From: Clostridiaceae bacterium | GTDB lineage: Bacteria > Bacillota > Clostridia > DSM-8532 | DNA length: 42,929 nt | Direction: 5' to 3' | NCBI GenBank assembly: GCA_012523705.1 | Contig: JAAYTU010000074.1 | Span: 1 to 42,929 of the forward strand | Part shown: one piece after another, positions 3,891 to 28,269 of the stretch | Layout: every line of letters starts with the position of its first letter | Numbering within the stretch: the stretch's first letter is position 1 | Program-made: the position numbers and the translations under genes | The notes under the pieces: generated by a model | What the model saw: the letters and a program-made list of their open reading frames with translations, nothing else | Database searches by the model: none | Told to the model about the DNA's origin: nothing

Positions 3891-4610
3891 ATGGAAGGAT
3901 ATATACATTCGGTTGAGACCTATGGAACCCTTGATGGACCGGGTATACGTTATGTTGTGTTTATGCAGGGCTGTGCCTTAAGATGCAAATATTGCCATAA
4001 TCCTGATACATGGCAGCTTCAGGCTGGAAATAAAACTACAGTTCAAGAGCTGATGGAGGATATCCTGAAGTACAAAAACTTCATAAAGAGTGGAGGAGTT
4101 ACACTGTCAGGGGGTGAGCCTCTTTTGCAGCCGGATTATGCTGCTGAGGTTTTAAAAGAATGCAGGAAACATGGTATTCATACTGCAATAGATACATCAG
4201 GAGAATTGCCCTTGATTACATGCCGGCATGCCATCGATGAAGCTGACCTTGTTTTATTGGATATTAAGTCCATTGATTCAGCCAAGGCTCTTTGCTTTAC
4301 GGGAAAAGGTAATGAGAATGTCTTAAGGCTTCTGGATTATCTGGAGGAAAGCAAAAAGGAAGTATGGATACGCCATGTAATAGTTCCAGGTCTTACTGAT
4401 GATTATGAAGATATTGAAAAACTGGCAGAGCATCTTTCCCATTATACCGTTATCAGTCGTGTTGATATTCTTCCCTTTCACAAGCTTGGTGAATATAAGT
4501 GGGAGGAGCTTGGCTTGATGTATGAGCTGGGCTCAACTCAGCCCCCTGAAAAAGAATCCATAGCCAAAATAAAGACCATCTTTAGAAAGTACAAGCTGAA
4601 TGTTGTATAA
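3891..4610 (+). CDS. pflA: pyruvate formate-lyase activating enzyme (radical SAM)
   Basis: The 239-residue protein has the radical SAM cluster motif CALRCKYC (C28, C32, C35), followed by the SAM-binding glycine-rich segment GGVTLSGGEPLLQ. It uses S-adenosylmethionine and a [4Fe-4S] cluster to abstract hydrogen from the active-site glycine of PflB. The length matches the canonical PflA (about 245) and there is no extra ferredoxin insert, unlike activases of other glycyl-radical enzymes. A GGGAG ribosome site precedes the ATG. It sits directly downstream of pflB and is presumably co-transcribed with it. Confidence 0.96.
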   Translation: MEGYIHSVETYGTLDGPGIRYVVFMQGCALRCKYCHNPDTWQLQAGNKTTVQELMEDILKYKNFIKSGGVTLSGGEPLLQPDYAAEVLKECRKHGIHTAIDTSGELPLITCRHAIDEADLVLLDIKSIDSAKALCFTGKGNENVLRLLDYLEESKKEVWIRHVIVPGLTDDYEDIEKLAEHLSHYTVISRVDILPFHKLGEYKWEELGLMYELGSTQPPEKESIAKIKTIFRKYKLNVV

Positions 4611-4618
4611 TAGTACTT

Positions 4619-7285
4619 ATGAATAAAGTAGTTATTGGAATACTAGCCCATGTAGATGCCGGAAAAACAACATTATCAGAGGGCTTGCTTTATGTAAGCG
4701 GCAATATACGCAAGCTTGGAAGAGTGGATAACAAGGATGCCTATCTGGATAATTATGATCTTGAAAGGGCAAGAGGGATTACCATCTTTTCAAAGCAGGC
4801 TATACTAAAGGATAACGAAATTCAAATAACTCTTCTTGATACTCCGGGACATGTAGACTTTTCAAGCGAAATGGAAAGAACCCTGCAGGTCCTGGATTAT
4901 GCTATCTTAATAATTAATGGAGCAGACGGTGTACAGGGGCATACAAAGACTCTGTGGCGTCTGCTTTCTATTTATAATATCCCGGTTTTTATCTTTGTTA
5001 ACAAGATGGATATGTTAACTGCCAATAAAGGAAAGCTTATCAGGGACATAAAAAAACAACTTAGCGACAGATGTATTGATTTCAGCCAGGGTATCAATGA
5101 AGAGGTTAATGACCAGCTTGCAATGACTGATGAAGCTTTGATGGAGACCTTTCTAGAAAAGGGAGGAATCACATCCGGCCAAATTAAAGATGCAGTTAAA
5201 TCCTCTAAGGTTTTCCCCTGCTATTTCGGGTCAGCACTGAAGCTAGAAGGGATAAGCGAGCTTTTGGAAGGTATTAAGAAATATACTATACATCCTGCTT
5301 ATCCCGATGAATTCGGCGCGAGGATATTTAAAATTGGAAGGGACGAACAGGGCAACCGTCTTACTTATATGAAGGTTACAGGCGGCAACCTAAAAGCCAG
5401 GGCGCTTTTGACAAATGGAGTCTGGGAGGAAAAGGTTAATCAGATTCGAATTTATTCAGGTGAGAAGTATGAAGCCGTGAATGAATGTGAAGCGGGTGAA
5501 ATCTGTGCCGTAACAGGTCTTAACCAAACAAGACCTGGAGAGGGGCTGGGATTTGAAAAAGCATCTCCTCTTCCTTTAATTGAGCCCGTTATGACATATC
5601 AGATTTTATTGCCTGATGGTATGGATCCCCGTGCTATGCTGCCTAAGCTTCGGGAACTGGAGGAGGAAAATCCTGAACTAAGTATTGTTTGGAGTGAGGT
5701 TCTAAGAGAAATACAAGTAAAGGTGATGGGGCAGGTTCAGATAGAAATTTTGCAAAGCCTTATCCAATCACGCTTTGGTGTTGAAGTAGCCTTTGGGCCG
5801 GGCAAAATTGTATATAAAGAAACAATTGCAAATACTGTTGAGGGTGTTGGGCATTTTGAACCCCTAAGACATTATGCTGAGGTTCATTTATTGTTAGAGC
5901 CTGCTGAGCGGGGGAGCGGCATAAGCTTTTATGATAATTGCAGTGAGGATACTCTGGGGAAAAGCTGGAAGAACCTTATAATGTCGCATCTTAAAGAGAA
6001 GGAGCATAAGGGCGTACTCACTGGTTCATCAATTACAGATATTAATATTACATTGGTATCAGGAAAAGCACATAATAAGCATACTGAAGGGGGCGACTTC
6101 AGAGAGGCTACCTACAGAGCTGTACGCCAGGGGCTCAAGGAGGCTGAGTCTGTACTGCTTGAGCCTTGTTATTCCTTTCATTTGGAGCTGCCAGAAAAAA
6201 TGCTTGGACGGGCTATGAATGATATAGAAAATATGCGCGGGACAAGCCAGATTCTGAGTACTGATGGAGAAACTGCAATTCTTACAGGAAGTGCCCCTGT
6301 TGTCTATTTAAGAGATTATCAGAATGATGTGAATGCGTATACCAGAGGTCAGGGGAAGCTCTTCTTAAGCATGAAGGGTTATGAGCCCTGTCATAATGCT
6401 GATGAGGTAATAGAACAATCTGGATATGATTCTGAGCGGGATGTTGAGAACCCCACGGGATCAGTTTTTTGCTCAGGTGGAACAGGTTTTATTGTTCCAT
6501 GGTATGAAGTAAAGAACCATATGCATTTAGAAAGCTATCTGAAGCAGAAGGACAATTATTCAGACGAAATAGCTTTAGTGAAAGCACAGACTACAAATGA
6601 AAGATGGCTTGAACCAGAAGAGGTAGATCGGATTTTAAACAAGACCTTTTTTGCTAATCAGGGGAAAAAGTCTGTTTGGAAAAAAAGAAAATCGGCAAAG
6701 GACAGCTTCTACAGATCCCAAAGTTTAAGAGGGGATACTTCCGATGATCTCGCGGCCACTGTCACAGCAGTTGAAAAAAAGGATGAGTATTTGCTTGTGG
6801 ATGGCTACAATGTAATATTTGCATGGCCCGAGTTAAAAGAACTTGCGGAAGAAAGTATGGACGCTTCGAGAAACAGCTTACTTGATTCATTAAGCAAATA
6901 TCAGAGCCTGCAAAAGTGCAATATAATTGTAGTCTTTGATGCATATCGTGTTCAGAGACACAGAGAGGAAATAATCAAATACCATAATATAAATGTGGTA
7001 TATACCAAAGAGGCTCAGACTGCTGATCTATATATTGAGAAGTTTGCTTATGACAATAAGAAAAGGTACGACATAACTGTTGCCACCTCAGATGCCCTTG
7101 AGCAGATTATTATAAGGGGTACGGGAAGTGCAGTAATTTCAGCCCGGGAATTAAAGCTTGAAATAGAAAGAGTCAATGAAAGCATAAATCAGACACTTCA
7201 GGAAAAGCAGACAAAATCCCGCAACTTTTTAGGTGAATCCATCTCAGCTAATACAAAGAAGCAGATTGAAGATTTTTACTCTTAG
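4619..7285 (+). CDS. TetM/EF-G-like ribosomal GTPase fused to a YacP/Rae1-type NYN nuclease domain
   Basis: This 888-residue protein has two parts. Residues 1 to about 650 form a translational GTPase of the TetM/TetO type: G1 AHVDAGKTT (10-18), the G2 threonine in RGITIF (T55), G3 DTPGH (74-78), G4 NKMD (128-131), then EF-G-like domains. Residues 724 to about 870 match YacP/Rae1, the ribosome-dependent mRNA endonuclease of Bacillus: LLVDGYNVI, then VVFDAY, TADLYIE and ATSDALEQ supply the acidic residues typical of PIN/NYN nucleases. A low-complexity linker joins them. In the domain IV loop where TetM has the drug-displacing SPVSTPADF, this protein has HNKHTEGGDF (485-494), so a tetracycline-resistance role is doubtful. 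The ATG lies 8 bases after pflA stops and lacks a clear SD; the alignment of MNKVVIGILAHVDAGK with TetM supports this start. The function is inferred: a ribosome-binding factor that may cleave mRNA. Confidence 0.88.
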   Translation: MNKVVIGILAHVDAGKTTLSEGLLYVSGNIRKLGRVDNKDAYLDNYDLERARGITIFSKQAILKDNEIQITLLDTPGHVDFSSEMERTLQVLDYAILIINGADGVQGHTKTLWRLLSIYNIPVFIFVNKMDMLTANKGKLIRDIKKQLSDRCIDFSQGINEEVNDQLAMTDEALMETFLEKGGITSGQIKDAVKSSKVFPCYFGSALKLEGISELLEGIKKYTIHPAYPDEFGARIFKIGRDEQGNRLTYMKVTGGNLKARALLTNGVWEEKVNQIRIYSGEKYEAVNECEAGEICAVTGLNQTRPGEGLGFEKASPLPLIEPVMTYQILLPDGMDPRAMLPKLRELEEENPELSIVWSEVLREIQVKVMGQVQIEILQSLIQSRFGVEVAFGPGKIVYKETIANTVEGVGHFEPLRHYAEVHLLLEPAERGSGISFYDNCSEDTLGKSWKNLIMSHLKEKEHKGVLTGSSITDINITLVSGKAHNKHTEGGDFREATYRAVRQGLKEAESVLLEPCYSFHLELPEKMLGRAMNDIENMRGTSQILSTDGETAILTGSAPVVYLRDYQNDVNAYTRGQGKLFLSMKGYEPCHNADEVIEQSGYDSERDVENPTGSVFCSGGTGFIVPWYEVKNHMHLESYLKQKDNYSDEIALVKAQTTNERWLEPEEVDRILNKTFFANQGKKSVWKKRKSAKDSFYRSQSLRGDTSDDLAATVTAVEKKDEYLLVDGYNVIFAWPELKELAEESMDASRNSLLDSLSKYQSLQKCNIIVVFDAYRVQRHREEIIKYHNINVVYTKEAQTADLYIEKFAYDNKKRYDITVATSDALEQIIIRGTGSAVISARELKLEIERVNESINQTLQEKQTKSRNFLGESISANTKKQIEDFYS

Positions 7286-7422
7286 GATGCATTCCTTCTA
7301 ACAGGATATATTTTCAATTTTTTTACATACCTGATTTGATTATTGTGATACTATCTGTTATTATTAATAATTGAACTAAATTGTTTTATAATACATTAAT
7401 ATAGATATTGGAGGAGAAGAAT

Positions 7423-8061
7423 ATGAGTAAAAAAGTAACGATAGCTATAGAAAAAAGGGAAAACCCTAATAGCAGATCAAGTAAGCAGCTAAGGAAACAA
7501 GGATTTCTCCCTGCTTCAATCAGTTCAAAAGGAAAGGATTCAATTTCGGTTGCAGTAAAGCGTGATGAAATTGTGAAGAGCCTTTCAAAATACGGCAGGA
7601 ACTATTTATTTAATCTTGACCTGGAGGGAAAAGAAAATATTACTGCCATGGTCAAGAATATGTATTATTCACCTATAAATCGCGACCTCATTACCATTGA
7701 CTTCCAACAGATTTCTTTAGATGAAGAGATAAAAATTAATTTAGATGTTAGATTAGTGGGAAGAGAGGCAGTGGAATTTAAAAAGATGTTAGTAATGCTT
7801 CAAATGGACCAGATTCCTGTAAGTGGTTTACCACAAAATATTCCTGACTATTTAGAAATAGATGTTACAGATCTGGATGCCGATGATAGAATCACCATTG
7901 CAGATGTAAAATTCCCTGAGGGTATAACCCCTGAGGAAGAGGCCGATAAGATTGTATTGACAATTTCAAGGCCTAAGGGCGGGGCTGGACAAGCAGAAGG
8001 CGCTGAAGCAGAGTCAGACTCAGAATCAGAAGAAGGCGAAGCAGAGGCTTCTGCTGAATAA
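7423..8061 (+). CDS. rplY: 50S ribosomal protein L25/general stress protein Ctc
   Basis: The product is 212 residues with the L25 N-terminal beta-barrel that binds 5S rRNA, then the CTC-type C-terminal domain found in the long bacterial form. It ends in a strongly acidic Glu/Ser/Ala-rich tail (about the last 30 residues), common in long-form L25. A TTG at 7408 extends the frame, but GGAGG (7410-7414) overlaps that codon and is spaced 8 bases from the ATG at 7423, which I take as the start. It stands alone between the GTPase gene and a strong terminator. Confidence 0.93.
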   Translation: MSKKVTIAIEKRENPNSRSSKQLRKQGFLPASISSKGKDSISVAVKRDEIVKSLSKYGRNYLFNLDLEGKENITAMVKNMYYSPINRDLITIDFQQISLDEEIKINLDVRLVGREAVEFKKMLVMLQMDQIPVSGLPQNIPDYLEIDVTDLDADDRITIADVKFPEGITPEEEADKIVLTISRPKGGAGQAEGAEAESDSESEEGEAEASAE

Positions 8062-8342: not shown

Positions 8343-8843
8343 ATGAGTTGCGGTTGTTGCAGTACAGACAATAAGGTTCAAGAGTTAGACAAAATAATCG
8401 CCAAGTATAAGGATACGCGCGGAGCATTAATCCCAGTTTTGCATGATGCTCAAGAACTTTATGGCTATTTACCTATGAGCGTTCAGAAAAGGATTGCTGA
8501 AGGCTTGGGTGTCTCTCTTGCTGAGGTATATGGTGTGGTCACATTTTATACCCAGTTCTATCTTAATCCTAAAGGAAAATATAAAATAAGCGTATGTTTG
8601 GGAACAGCTTGCTATGTTAAGGGAGCTGGAGAAATCTATGACAAGATATCAGAAATTCTAAATATTAAGAGTGGAGAATGCACTTCTGACGGTCTCTTCT
8701 CGTTAGATGCCTGCAGATGTATAGGTGCTTGTGGGTTAGCCCCGGTAATAATGATTAACGATGATGTATATGGAAGACTTACTGCAGACGATATTCCAGA
8801 CATTATTCGAAAGTATCAAGAGGCCGAAGCAGCTGCCGTTTAG
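8343..8843 (+). CDS. hndA: NADH-dependent [FeFe] hydrogenase, NuoE-like [2Fe-2S] subunit
   Basis: The 166-residue protein is a homologue of the complex I 24-kDa subunit (NuoE; HydC in Thermotoga, HndA in Desulfovibrio). The four [2Fe-2S] ligands are visible as CLGTAC (C85, C90) and CIGAC (C126, C130). The N-terminal part is the usual helical NuoE domain that precedes a thioredoxin-like fold. It passes electrons between the flavin subunit HndC and the rest of the complex. An AGGAGGT site lies just before the ATG. It is the first gene of a five-gene operon with a Rex-type operator. An additional Cys-rich start (CGCC, residues 3-6) is unusual but may be only peripheral. Confidence 0.92.
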   Translation: MSCGCCSTDNKVQELDKIIAKYKDTRGALIPVLHDAQELYGYLPMSVQKRIAEGLGVSLAEVYGVVTFYTQFYLNPKGKYKISVCLGTACYVKGAGEIYDKISEILNIKSGECTSDGLFSLDACRCIGACGLAPVIMINDDVYGRLTADDIPDIIRKYQEAEAAAV

Positions 8844-8846
8844 ACT

Positions 8847-9410
8847 ATGAAAGATATATCAATGCATTTAATGGATATAGCTCAGAACTCAATTGTGGCA
8901 GGTGCCAGTAAGATAAGTATAATTATTCAAGTATGTGATATTCGACAAATGCTGTACTTTGAAGTCATTGATAATGGTAAGGGGATGGAAAAGGACTTTT
9001 TGAGAAAGGTTACAGATCCGTTTAAAACCACTAGAACTACCAGAAGGGTGGGACTTGGAATTCCCTTATTGAAGCAGTCAGCTGAAATGGCGGGAGGCGA
9101 GCTTAGACTCGATTCAGAGCCCGGTAAAGGAACAAAGATACAGGCCAGCTTCAAGGTGGATCATATAGACAGAATTCCTATAGGTGATATACCGGGAACC
9201 CTGACATTATTAATATCAGCTAATAAAAGCATAACCTGGATAGTCGAGTTTAAATATAAAAATGCAGACTTTTTATTGGATACTGACCAGATTAATGAAG
9301 TATTGGACGGGGTTCAAATAGACAATAAGAATGTACTTGAATGGATACAAAATACAATTAGTCAAGGTATTAATTCAGTTTTCGGAGGTGTATTAAGTGA
9401 AGTCGATTGA
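8847..9410 (+). CDS. GHKL-family ATPase embedded in the hydrogenase operon
   Basis: This 187-residue protein has the ATP-binding fold of histidine kinases and related ATPases: N box DIAQNSI (N14), G1 box IDNGKGM (41-47), and a G2 box VGLGIPLLKQ (68-77). It has no dimerisation/phosphoacceptor His domain, no sensor and no membrane segment. About 75 residues of C-terminal extension after residue 110 match nothing I recognise. It lies 3 bases after hndA and overlaps hndB by 14 bases, so it is translationally coupled to the hydrogenase. Similar orphan ATPases occur in other clostridial hydrogenase operons, from general knowledge, and their role is not settled. A regulatory or assembly role is inference. 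Confidence 0.8.
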   Translation: MKDISMHLMDIAQNSIVAGASKISIIIQVCDIRQMLYFEVIDNGKGMEKDFLRKVTDPFKTTRTTRRVGLGIPLLKQSAEMAGGELRLDSEPGKGTKIQASFKVDHIDRIPIGDIPGTLTLLISANKSITWIVEFKYKNADFLLDTDQINEVLDGVQIDNKNVLEWIQNTISQGINSVFGGVLSEVD

Positions 9411-9765
9411 AGAATTAAAAGCTATTCGTGATAAAGCGTTAAAGGAAATGTCAATTCGTGATAATGAGGATAAAATCAGAATAGTGGTTGGTATGGCCAC
9501 CTGTGGTATAGCCGCTGGCGCCAAGAAAGTAATGAACGCGTTTATCGAAGAAATTGAAAAGCGTAAAATTAATAATGTAAGTGTATCAATGACAGGATGC
9601 ATAGGAGTATGTCGTTTAGAACCGGTTGCAGAGATAATCGAGGCAAATGGTGAAAAAACAACATATGTTGAGCTGGATGCCGAAAAAGTCAGAAGAATTG
9701 TTGCAGAGCATTTAGTTAACCAAAAGCCTGTTACTGAATTCACTGTTGGCGCAGCAGAAAGGTAG
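9397..9765 (+). CDS. hndB: hydrogenase accessory thioredoxin-like [2Fe-2S]-type protein
   Basis: The 122-residue protein resembles HndB, the small thioredoxin-like ferredoxin subunit of tetrameric NAD(P)-dependent hydrogenases. It starts at GTG with GGAGGTG placed just before it, and overlaps the end of the GHKL ATPase gene. Cysteines occur only at residues 36 (TCGIAAGA), 68 and 72 (GCIGVC), three in all, whereas a thioredoxin-like ferredoxin cluster needs four ligands. The related N-terminal domain of HndC has all four. It may hold an unusual cluster, share a ligand, or be structural. Gene order hndA-X-hndB-hndC-hndD fits the four-subunit Hnd type rather than the three-subunit Thermotoga HydABC. 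Confidence 0.88.
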   Translation: MKSIEELKAIRDKALKEMSIRDNEDKIRIVVGMATCGIAAGAKKVMNAFIEEIEKRKINNVSVSMTGCIGVCRLEPVAEIIEANGEKTTYVELDAEKVRRIVAEHLVNQKPVTEFTVGAAER

Positions 9766-9775
9766 GGGGATGATT

Positions 9776-11566
9776 ATGGTTTACAGATCACATGTCTTGA
9801 TTTGTAATGGTACAGGCTGTACAGCTTCTAAGGCTCCAGATTTAATGGACAGATTGGAAAAGGAGCTCAAGGCCAATGGCATAGAAAATGAAGTTAAGAT
9901 TGTTAAAACCGGATGCTTTGGACTTTGTGAAAAGGGCCCGATATTGGTAATCTATCCTGAGGGTGCTACATATTGCCATGTTACTGTTGATGATGTAGAA
10001 AAAATAGTAAGCGAGCATCTGGTAAAAGGTCGTATTGTAAAGGACCTATTATTAGGTGATGCAGAGGCGGAGGATATTACCAAGTCCCTTGACAATGTAG
10101 ATTTCTTCTCGCGTCAGCATAGAATTGCTCTTCGTAATTGCGGCGTTATTAATCCTGAGGTTATTGATGAGTACATAGCCAAGGATGGTTATCAGGCTCT
10201 TGCAAAGGTTCTCACAGAAATGACGCCTCAAGAGGTAATAGATCTATTAAAGGCATCAAACCTTCGTGGCCGTGGTGGCGCAGGTTTCCCGACAGGTCTG
10301 AAATGGCAATTTGCAGCTAAAGAGGTTAATGAGCAAAAATATGTTTGCTGTAATGCCGACGAAGGTGACCCGGGAGCATTCATGGACAGATCTATTTTAG
10401 AGGGTGACCCCCACTCCTTAATAGAGGCAATGACCATTGCAGGTTATGCAATCGGAGCTAATCAGGGATATGTATATGTAAGAGCAGAATATCCCATAGC
10501 TGTTAACCGCTTGAACATTGCGTTGGAACAAGCTCGTGAATATGGATTATTAGGAAAGAATATTTTTGGAACAGACTTTTCATTTGATATAGGTTTAAGA
10601 CTAGGTGCTGGTGCATTTGTTTGTGGAGAAGAAACCGCACTCATGACATCCATTGAGGGTAAGCGCGGAGAGCCAAGAACCCGTCCTCCGTTCCCTGCAG
10701 TTAAAGGACTTTTTGGCAAACCTACAATTCTTAATAATGTTGAGACCTATGCAAATATACCTCCAATAATATTAAATGGTTCAGAGTGGTTTAATTCAAT
10801 AGGTACAGAAAAGAGCAAGGGTACAAAGGTGTTTGCTATTGGTGGAAAAATCAATAATACTGGTCTTGTAGAGATACCTATGGGAACGACCCTTCGTGAA
10901 GTTGTTTATGATATCGGTGGCGGTATTCCAAACAATAAGAAGTTTAAAGCTGCCCAGACAGGTGGACCATCGGGCGGATGTATTCCATTTGAGCATATTG
11001 ATACTCCTATTGACTATGATAATCTGATTAATATTGGCTCAATGATGGGCTCAGGCGGATTAATTGTTATGGATGAGGACAACTGTATGGTTGACATAGC
11101 TAAGTTCTTCTTAGAGTTTACAGTTGATGAATCCTGTGGTAAATGCCCACCTTGTCGTATAGGTACAAAGCGCATGTATGAGATCCTTGACCGTATCACA
11201 AAGGGTAAAGGTGAAGAAGGGGATATTGAAAAGCTTGAGACCTTAGCAGAGAGCATTAGACAGGCATCTCTTTGCGGTCTTGGCCAGACTGCTCCAAACC
11301 CTGTACTGAGCACCTTAAGATATTTCCGTGATGAATATGAGGCTCATGTAAAAGAACACAGATGTCCTGCCGGCGTTTGTAAGGCAATGGTCAAGTATAC
11401 TATTATCGCTGATAAGTGTAAGGGATGTAGCTTATGTGCCAGAAAATGTCCTGTAAATGCTATTTCTGGTGAGATTAAGAACCCATACGTTATAGATCAA
11501 GAAAAATGTATTAAGTGCGGAGTTTGTATGGATTCATGTAAATTTGCCGCCATTGAAAAGAAATAA
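9776..11566 (+). CDS. hndC: NADH-dependent [FeFe] hydrogenase, NuoF-like flavin subunit
   Basis: The 596-residue subunit (HydB/HndC) binds NADH, FMN and several FeS clusters. In order: an N-terminal thioredoxin-like [2Fe-2S] domain (C10, C15, C47, C51); the NuoF core with NADH/FMN motifs GRGGAGFPTGLKW and ADEGDPGAFMDR; an SLBB segment; the [4Fe-4S] motif CGKCPPCRIGTKR; and a C-terminal two-cluster ferredoxin domain, CKGCSLCARKCP and CIKCGVCMDSCK. This is the long form seen in bifurcating or NAD-linked hydrogenases. The frame opens at TTG 9746, inside hndB, but the AGGGGG site (9764-9769) is correctly spaced for the ATG at 9776; an ATG at 9770 is too close. It is the probable site where NADH and ferredoxin electrons meet. 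Confidence 0.94.
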   Translation: MVYRSHVLICNGTGCTASKAPDLMDRLEKELKANGIENEVKIVKTGCFGLCEKGPILVIYPEGATYCHVTVDDVEKIVSEHLVKGRIVKDLLLGDAEAEDITKSLDNVDFFSRQHRIALRNCGVINPEVIDEYIAKDGYQALAKVLTEMTPQEVIDLLKASNLRGRGGAGFPTGLKWQFAAKEVNEQKYVCCNADEGDPGAFMDRSILEGDPHSLIEAMTIAGYAIGANQGYVYVRAEYPIAVNRLNIALEQAREYGLLGKNIFGTDFSFDIGLRLGAGAFVCGEETALMTSIEGKRGEPRTRPPFPAVKGLFGKPTILNNVETYANIPPIILNGSEWFNSIGTEKSKGTKVFAIGGKINNTGLVEIPMGTTLREVVYDIGGGIPNNKKFKAAQTGGPSGGCIPFEHIDTPIDYDNLINIGSMMGSGGLIVMDEDNCMVDIAKFFLEFTVDESCGKCPPCRIGTKRMYEILDRITKGKGEEGDIEKLETLAESIRQASLCGLGQTAPNPVLSTLRYFRDEYEAHVKEHRCPAGVCKAMVKYTIIADKCKGCSLCARKCPVNAISGEIKNPYVIDQEKCIKCGVCMDSCKFAAIEKK

Positions 11567-11584
11567 GAGGGGAGTGTGAAAAGT

Positions 11585-13345
11585 ATGTCTGAATTTGTTA
11601 CCCTAACAATAGACGGTAAAGAAGTAAAGGCCCCGGTAGGGTCAACCGTGCTTGAGGCTGCAAAGAGCGCCGGGATAAATATACCCACTCTCTGTTATCT
11701 CAAGGACATAAATGAAATCGGCGCATGCCGTATGTGTATTGTAGACGTAGGTGCCAGAAGCTTTCAGGCAGCTTGTATGTATCCTGTATCAGAAGGATTA
11801 AAGGTTATTACAAATAGTCCTAAGATTCGTGAAACCCGTAAGGTTACTCTAGAATTGATTCTGTCAGCCCATGAGAGGACTTGCCTCAGCTGTGTAAGGA
11901 GCTTAAACTGTGAGCTGCAAAAGCTTGCTCAGGAATTGAATGTACAGGATATCAGATATGAGGGGGAAACACAGCACTATCCTATAGATGATTTATCACA
12001 TTCTATAGTTCGTGACCCAAATAAATGTATCTTATGTCGCCGTTGTGTAAGCGTTTGTAAAGAAGTGCAGACTGTATCTGCTATTGAAACAATTGACAGA
12101 GGTTACAAAACAATAGTTGCATCACCTTTCAATATGCCACTGAAGGATACTCCATGTGTAAACTGTGGTCAGTGTATCGTGGTTTGCCCGGTTGGTGCTC
12201 TTCGTGAAAAGAGTTCAATCGAGAAGGTTTGGGATGCATTAAGCAATGAGGATCTTCATGTTGTAGTTCAGACTGCACCTGCAGTTCGTGCTGCTATTGG
12301 AGAAGAGTTCGGATATCCTATCGGAACACCTGTTACTGGCAAGATGGTAGCCTCACTAAAGAAGTTAGGCTTTGCCAAAGTCTTTGACACTGATACAGCT
12401 GCTGACCTAACCATTATGGAAGAAGGAACTGAGCTGGTTAACAGAATTAAAAATAACGGCACTCTTCCACTGATTACATCATGTAGCCCTGGATGGATTA
12501 AGTTCTGCGAACATTTCTATCCTGATTTGCTGGATAATTTGTCAACATGTAAATCACCACAAAACATGTTTGGATCAGTTCTTAAATCTTATTATGCTGA
12601 TAAGATGGGTATTGATCGTGAAAAAATGTTTGTCGTATCAGTAATGCCATGTACAGCTAAAAAGTATGAGGCAGAAAGGCCAGAATTGGCCTCAACAGGT
12701 TTCCCTGATGTTGATGAGGTTATTACTACCCGCGAACTTGCCCAGATGATTAAAGAGGCTGGTATCGACTTCAGAAGACTTGAAGATGAAGAGTTTGACG
12801 ATCCAATGGGTGAAGCAACTGGCGCAGGTGTTATCTTCGGTGCTACTGGTGGCGTTATGGAGGCTGCATTAAGAAGTGTTCCTTATCTGCTTACCGGCAA
12901 GGATGATGACAATGTTGATATCAATGTCGTTAGAGGTGTTGAGGATATTAAGGAAGCCGAAGTTGAAGTGGCTGGAGTGAAGATTAAGGCAGCTGTTGCC
13001 CATGGCCTTGGAAATGCCAGAAAGATTATGGATAAGGTTAGAGCAGGAGAAGCTGATTATCAGTTTATCGAGATTATGGCTTGCCCTGGTGGATGCGTAT
13101 GCGGAGGCGGACAACCTATTCAGCCTGCTAGTGTAAGAAGTGACATGGATCTTAGGGTTGAAAGAGCAAAGGCTCTTTACCAGGAGGATCAAAATCTTAC
13201 ATTGAGAAGATCTCACCAGAATCCTAAGGTCTTGAAAATGTATGAGGAATACTTTGAGACACCGGGTGGGGAAAAGGCTCACAAGCTATTACACACACAT
13301 TATGTGGCTCGTGAAAACTATCCTGAGGACAAAGCTCAGAAATAA
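11585..13345 (+). CDS. hndD: NADH-dependent [FeFe] hydrogenase, catalytic subunit
   Basis: The 586-residue catalytic subunit (also called hydA) has an N-terminal [2Fe-2S] domain, a His-Cys3 [4Fe-4S] site (HERTCLSC...C), two ferredoxin-type [4Fe-4S] motifs (CILCRRCVSVC and CVNCGQCIVVCP), and the H-cluster domain. The H-cluster motifs are L1 TSCSPGW (298-304), L2 MPCTAKKYE (C356) and L3 with C500 and C504 followed by VCGGGQP. A short small-subunit-like segment ends the protein. L1 reads TSCSP rather than TSCCP. ATG 11585 is chosen over the in-frame GTG at 11576 because GGGGAG (11569-11574) is only 1 base from the GTG and 10 from the ATG. HydE, HydF and HydG maturases are not in the window. It fits the group often named NADH-dependent group A hydrogenases. 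Confidence 0.95.
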   Translation: MSEFVTLTIDGKEVKAPVGSTVLEAAKSAGINIPTLCYLKDINEIGACRMCIVDVGARSFQAACMYPVSEGLKVITNSPKIRETRKVTLELILSAHERTCLSCVRSLNCELQKLAQELNVQDIRYEGETQHYPIDDLSHSIVRDPNKCILCRRCVSVCKEVQTVSAIETIDRGYKTIVASPFNMPLKDTPCVNCGQCIVVCPVGALREKSSIEKVWDALSNEDLHVVVQTAPAVRAAIGEEFGYPIGTPVTGKMVASLKKLGFAKVFDTDTAADLTIMEEGTELVNRIKNNGTLPLITSCSPGWIKFCEHFYPDLLDNLSTCKSPQNMFGSVLKSYYADKMGIDREKMFVVSVMPCTAKKYEAERPELASTGFPDVDEVITTRELAQMIKEAGIDFRRLEDEEFDDPMGEATGAGVIFGATGGVMEAALRSVPYLLTGKDDDNVDINVVRGVEDIKEAEVEVAGVKIKAAVAHGLGNARKIMDKVRAGEADYQFIEIMACPGGCVCGGGQPIQPASVRSDMDLRVERAKALYQEDQNLTLRRSHQNPKVLKMYEEYFETPGGEKAHKLLHTHYVARENYPEDKAQK

Positions 13346-27782: not shown

Positions 27783-28170
27783 ATGAGTAGGTCGGATGGT
27801 CGCGGACGCAATGCCTAAAGGCTGCGTACGAGGAAAGTCCGGGCTCCATAGGGCAAAGGTGCCGGGTAACACCCGGTGAAGGCGACTTCAAGGATAGTGC
27901 AACAGAAATAAACCGCCATGCTTCAGGTTGGAGATGAAAGGTCTTTCTTTTCACCTCCGACCCGGGCATGGTAAGGATGGAAAGGTGAGGTAAGAGCTCA
28001 CCGACCCTACGGCGACGATGGGTGCTATGTAAACCCCACCTGGAGCAACACCGTGACAAGGAACGATAAGGCTGCCCGTCTGTTCCTTAGAGGTGGCTAA
28101 AGCCTTGTAGTAATACAAGGCATAGACAGATGATCATTCAAGACAGAACCCGGCTTACAGATCTGCTCAT
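27783..28170 (+). ncRNA. rnpB: RNase P RNA, bacterial class A
   Basis: The catalytic RNA that trims the 5' leader of tRNAs. The signature GAGGAAAGTCCGGGCTCC starts at 27830, ACAGAAATAAACCGCC lies near 27902, and the conserved 3' part AGACAGAACCCGGCTTA starts at 28141. The ends pair: ATGAGTAGGTC at 27783 with GATCTGCTCAT at the 3' end, closing P1. Total length is about 388 bases, normal for the class, and TTTTTATCC follows. Exact ends are set by the P1 pairing and could differ by a few bases. Confidence 0.95.
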
Positions 28171-28269
28171 TTTTATCCTAATGAACTTGTATGAATTGGC
28201 ATGCAAGTTTTATCTATCTGTTTGAAAAGAATCTAATTTAAAGTGCATATTAAAATTGAGGTTAACGAA

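Follow-up and report, generated by a model that had tools for sequence, protein, structure and literature searches.

The GTPase-nuclease gene and its surroundings

The stretch of clostridial DNA analyzed here (the window, 42,929 nucleotides) carries on its forward strand, at positions 4619–7285, a single uninterrupted frame of 888 codons followed by a stop. According to Pfam, its translation contains in one chain, and in this order, a GTP_EFTU domain, EF-G domains II–V and a NYN_YacP domain. Based on the open frame, the Pfam matches and the full-length relatives, we describe it as a fused gene that encodes a translational GTPase and a Rae1/YacP-type NYN endoribonuclease within 888 amino acids. 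The fusion put forward in the original prediction, which was made from the sequence alone, is therefore real.

The G domain (residues 4–222, positions 4628–5284; Pfam GTP_EFTU) contains the motifs G1 AHVDAGKTT, G2 RGITI, G3 DTPGH, whose histidine is H78, G4 NKMD and G5 SAL, and these five motifs together with domains II–V place the protein in the translational GTPase superfamily (EF2 family). On the same strand, it is followed by EF-G-like domains II and III (residues 232–393, positions 5312–5797), which are supported by the structure model and by Pfam EF-G_D2 at residues 232–305 and EFG_III at residues 322–393, the latter match being slightly sub-threshold (25.8 versus a cut-off of 27). Next come EF-G-like domain IV (residues 395–509, positions 5801–6145; Pfam EFG_IV) and domain V (residues 512–593, positions 6152–6397; Pfam EFG_C). 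The tip loop of domain IV, HNKHTEGGDF (residues 485–494, positions 6071–6100), was located by alignment with Tet(M), Tet(O), EF-G and unfused relatives. The GTPase part closes with a C-terminal extension (residues 594–640, positions 6398–6538) of pattern EVIE..GYD..SVFC..G.GF.V.W..V..MH, which is confidently modelled. This extension is common to unfused relatives that end just past it, so the fusion can be described as a GTPase of the unfused type plus a tether and a nuclease.

The flexible tether (residues 641–722, positions 6539–6784) is poorly conserved and varies from 67 to 116 residues in length across relatives. The NYN_YacP/Rae1 ribonuclease domain (residues 723–870, positions 6785–7228) is recognized by Pfam PF05991 at residues 725–886 (E 1.6e-52, 178 bits versus a cut-off of 24.6), and its nearest solved structure is B. 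subtilis YacP/Rae1, PDB 5mq8 (E 4e-25). With the Rae1 residue numbering worked out from the alignment to this structure, D728 (6800–6802), D774 (6938–6940), D803 (7025–7027) and D825 (7091–7093) align with Rae1 D7, position 53, D81 and D104, respectively. All four aspartates are invariant in 56 aligned full-length relatives, which bears out the earlier claim of a Rae1-type nuclease with its acidic residues kept. In the same alignment, G1–G4, the DTPGH histidine, H485 and G491–F494 are invariant or nearly so, and the GTPase motifs are intact, as had been predicted. Mean column conservation is 0.77–0.86 in the GTPase domains, with domain IV highest at 0.86, compared with 0.74 in the NYN domain and 0.44 in the linker.

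A structure model built from 56 sequences (mean pLDDT 78.5) shows the EF-G-like domains, an extension folded to about residue 640 and a folded NYN domain, separated by a disordered stretch at about residues 644–719 that forms a tether of some 75 residues; within it, residues 644–665 and 672–719 have pLDDT below 50. The top Foldseek matches of this model are EF-G structures, many of them ribosome-bound, and the best solved relatives of residues 4–591 are Tet(O), EF-G and Tet(M).

Upstream of the fused gene lie pflB and pflA, the latter separated from it by a gap of 8 bases. No clear Shine-Dalgarno sequence was found at positions 4600–4618, before an ATG that is backed by relatives with an identical start position; given the 8-base gap, translation of pflA and the fused gene may be coupled in this genome. 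The original prediction considered the position next to pflBA worth noting, and this did not hold up: among the genomes examined, the arrangement occurs only here, flanks of up to 5 kb in about 100 other loci turned up no pflA next to the fusion, nor was any found ahead of it in eleven genomes from the same genus or family. A functional link with pflBA was consequently rejected, as it is not shared even within the genus or family. Directly downstream, positions 7408–8061 hold what we take to be an L25/Ctc-type ribosomal protein gene, and no such gene turned up next to the fusion in the relatives examined. Positions 8343–13345 presumably hold an electron-bifurcating [FeFe]-hydrogenase-type operon, with NuoE-, NuoF- and HydA-like frames and a histidine-kinase-type ATPase frame. 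Farther along the window, a class A bacterial RNase P RNA is recognized at positions 27784–28173 (Rfam, 289 bits). Across 101 loci no conserved operon partner was found, the commonest neighbour family appearing in 12 of them, which would fit a factor working without partners.

Distribution of the fusion and its relation to Tet proteins

A scan of genome contigs returned 417 relatives, from which 80 were kept, a few of them truncated where a contig stops, all with GTPase and nuclease in one stretch. They represent 80 independent loci with the same architecture, and their best segments are 56–69% identical. The concern, raised with the original prediction, that a frameshift or an assembly join might have brought the two domains together could be excluded, since the architecture recurs in these 80 loci and in about 100 of 291 clostridial genomes, with about 100 independent full-length relatives. 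The fusion is mostly single-copy per genome, is spread across many families of the class, and is also found outside class Clostridia within the phylum. One scan of viral contigs with patterns from close relatives found no phage carriage. In genome G133, which is 61% complete, two fused copies lie on contigs C16 and C48 (L133 and L143) and represent either paralogues or contamination.

The architecture itself is not new. Atkinson 2015 (BMC Genomics 16:78, PMC4342817) describes it in ten Clostridiales, publishes these proteins within the Tet subfamily, and proposes that they confer tetracycline resistance based on an RNase. The protein described here, a clostridial EF-G/Tet-type GTPase with a YacP-like NYN domain at its C-terminal end, shares both architecture and lineage with them and is a further member of that published architecture. 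Rae1 was discovered only after the 2015 report (Leroy 2017, as cited in PMC10100781). No other report of the fusion was found in the literature searched; Condon 2018, which deals with Rae1 distribution, may mention it.

Placement within the Tet proteins has some basis, as the domain plan is that of Tet(M) and Tet(O), with about 30% identity over 590 residues of the five-domain EF-G-like GTPase, the best NCBIfam match is tet_protect, and some relatives are automatically annotated as TetM family. However, the tet_protect match reaches 434 bits against a cut-off of 775, and the TetM/W/O/S model reaches 286 bits against 1100, both far below the curated cut-offs. The EF-G equivalog is not attained either (295 bits versus a cut-off of 659), and the genome carries two further EF-G-type genes. 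In a tree of Tet(M), Tet(O), Otr(A)-like, tet(36)-like and EF-G rows, a small sample in which two Tet rows are long-branched, the fused and unfused proteins cluster together (100/100), and the Tet rows fall separately (100/99). The fusion further differs from Tet(M) and Tet(O) in its C-terminal extension, its added nuclease and its domain IV tip: the SPVSTPADF loop of both resistance proteins is replaced by HNKHTEGGDF, as had been noticed from the sequence, and this loop is kept in the family, its first histidine aligning with the tip histidine of EF-G domain IV. We therefore reject identity with a Tet resistance protein on the cut-offs, the tip loop and the tree, in agreement with the original prediction, and the automatic annotation of fused genes as tetracycline-resistance proteins is probably wrong.

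Closer to the fusion stand the unfused proteins annotated as 'translation factor GTPase family protein', for example from a Ligilactobacillus salivarius megaplasmid and from Paenibacillus, which are 44–54% identical to it and have a related tip and the same extension, but stop near residue 650 and lack both the tether and the nuclease. On the L. salivarius megaplasmid (L087:2529–4920), the gene lies divergently next to a plasmid copy of rpsN, which encodes ribosomal protein S14, and a gene for a putative metal homeostasis protein, a cluster that is perhaps a stress-linked ribosome set.

Replacement of the separate Rae1/YacP gene

Among the 291 clostridial genomes sampled, NYN_YacP scored above cut-off in 188 and the GTPase in 122. 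Chains carrying both GTP_EFTU and NYN_YacP, the spread of which had been left to be counted by the original prediction, occur in about 105 genomes and a separate YacP/Rae1 in 83, with no genome having both (Fisher p 1.5e-20, not corrected for kinship); this mutual exclusion is partly due to shared ancestry. In these counts, some frames truncated at a contig end or broken by a frameshift (G051, G139, G180, G215 and G221) were scored as fusions from their position, and for unlisted YacP matches the fused state was deduced from the length of the GTPase frame. Three genomes of a single genus seemed at first to have a separate YacP besides the fusion; this was rejected, as the matches concerned are sub-cut-off, at about 21 bits. 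Five genomes of one genus (G025, G059, G136, G201 and G242) encode a separate protein of about 165 amino acids with a sub-cut-off NYN_YacP match to the first third of the profile only.

The separate gene has the neighbourhood cysS-mrnC-rlmB-yacP-sigH, and rlmB adjoins it in 18 of 21 loci. In this genome the slot after rlmB is empty of yacP, the order being mrnC, rlmB and then an unrelated gene; no separate Rae1/YacP gene stands in that neighbourhood, and the fusion carries the only YacP domain of the genome. B. subtilis Rae1/YacP (5mq8) shares the NYN_YacP family and the four aspartates with the fusion, but it stands alone, with about 170 residues, and is encoded beside rlmB, whereas the domain described here ends an 888-residue GTPase encoded elsewhere. 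In a tree, the fused NYN domains group together (99/97), and two separate ones fall among them; a topology with all fused domains in one clade is not rejected (p-AU 0.36), so that one origin of the fusion is possible. In about a third of the sampled clostridial genomes, the fusion seems to take the place of the customary free-standing Rae1. As far as the literature searched goes, what is new here is this strict replacement of free Rae1, together with a GTPase part set apart from the Tet resistance proteins sampled.

Proposed function and alternative explanations

Strict replacement of Rae1 and separation of the GTPase from the Tet proteins together favour an mRNA endonuclease over a resistance protein. 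We consider it reasonably likely that the fused protein is a chromosomal translation factor that serves as the Rae1 equivalent of this lineage, that is, a tethered mRNA endonuclease targeted to the ribosome. The EF-G/TetM-like part would bind the factor site of the ribosome with domain IV reaching toward the A site, most likely on paused ribosomes with an empty A site. Tet-type factors bind at the A site and occupy or overlap it by cryo-EM (reviewed in PMC8161019), and Rae1 has also been proposed to act there; in B. subtilis, mRNA is the target of Rae1, whose action depends on translation (PMC10100781). We infer ribosome binding, mRNA as the substrate and cleavage at the A site by the fusion. 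Since domain IV and the nuclease cannot share the A site, they would have to act in turn, presumably domain IV first and the NYN domain second: the latter, on its flexible tether, would gain access after the departure of domain IV, perhaps upon GTP hydrolysis, and cut the mRNA at or beside the A site. Hydrolysis appears to be needed for Tet-type factors to leave the ribosome (PMC8161019). Rescue of the truncated complex by tmRNA could follow, along with degradation of the mRNA.

Delivery of the nuclease by GTP hydrolysis, which the original prediction cast as a timer, would be plausible, while hydrolysis as the switch between domain IV and the NYN domain is speculative. Only tentatively, then, do we advance the more specific model of a GTP-switched ribosomal mRNA endonuclease, in which the EF-G-like part recognizes stalled ribosomes and hydrolysis hands the A site to the Rae1 domain, which cuts the codon.

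The alternative that survives best, although we regard it as unlikely, is that the GTPase and the Rae1 nuclease merely share a chain, gaining proximity to ribosomes or a fixed dosage, with no control of cleavage by the GTPase. A tether that is long, poorly conserved and disordered is compatible with this explanation, as is the occurrence of each part alone elsewhere. Of the 291 genomes, about 18 have an unfused GTPase. Ten of these also carry a separate YacP; the other eight do not, and in two of them a contig end may have cut the frame. Co-occurrence of the unfused GTPase with a separate YacP is not above chance (10 of 83 genomes versus 8 of the 103 without YacP, p 0.46), and we discarded it as proof of a partnership because it is not significant. 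Six to eight genomes have the GTPase without any YacP, from which it follows that each part can work alone. Genome G243 carries a lone NYN gene of the fused type (173 amino acids, L120:2287–2808) and an unfused GTPase on another contig (L135:1498–3447), a possible natural fission of the fusion; together with the chance-level co-occurrence, this pair indicates that the two parts can function separately. The Rae1-equivalent reading also has to accommodate two genomes of the same genus with neither GTPase nor YacP, which show that the function is dispensable. Against mere sharing, many families have retained the fusion and secondary splitting is very rare, suggesting that the joint arrangement matters.

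Two further explanations fare worse. A nuclease that matures or degrades rRNA or tRNA on ribosomes, with the GTPase serving in assembly or recycling, would suit the position of the separate YacP beside rlmB and mrnC, both rRNA-processing genes, and Anantharaman and Aravind originally proposed such a role for YacP (cited in PMC4342817). We consider it improbable, given the translation-dependent action of B. subtilis Rae1 on mRNA and the fact that the fused gene is no longer in the rlmB operon. Least probable of all, and very much so, is a tetracycline-resistance ribosome protection protein with an added RNase mode, as in the 2015 proposal: besides the scores, clade and tip loop given above, its mostly single-copy presence across many families looks like that of a lineage gene and not of a mobile resistance gene.

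The Rae1-equivalent reading also touches the broader question of how Rae1 reaches paused ribosomes and spares normal ones: the natural occurrence of an EF-G-like fusion in the place of Rae1 in many clostridia suggests that access to the ribosome may be factor-controlled. If the GTP-switched model is true, a factor-delivered cleavage pathway would replace free Rae1 in a large part of Clostridia and feed tmRNA rescue.
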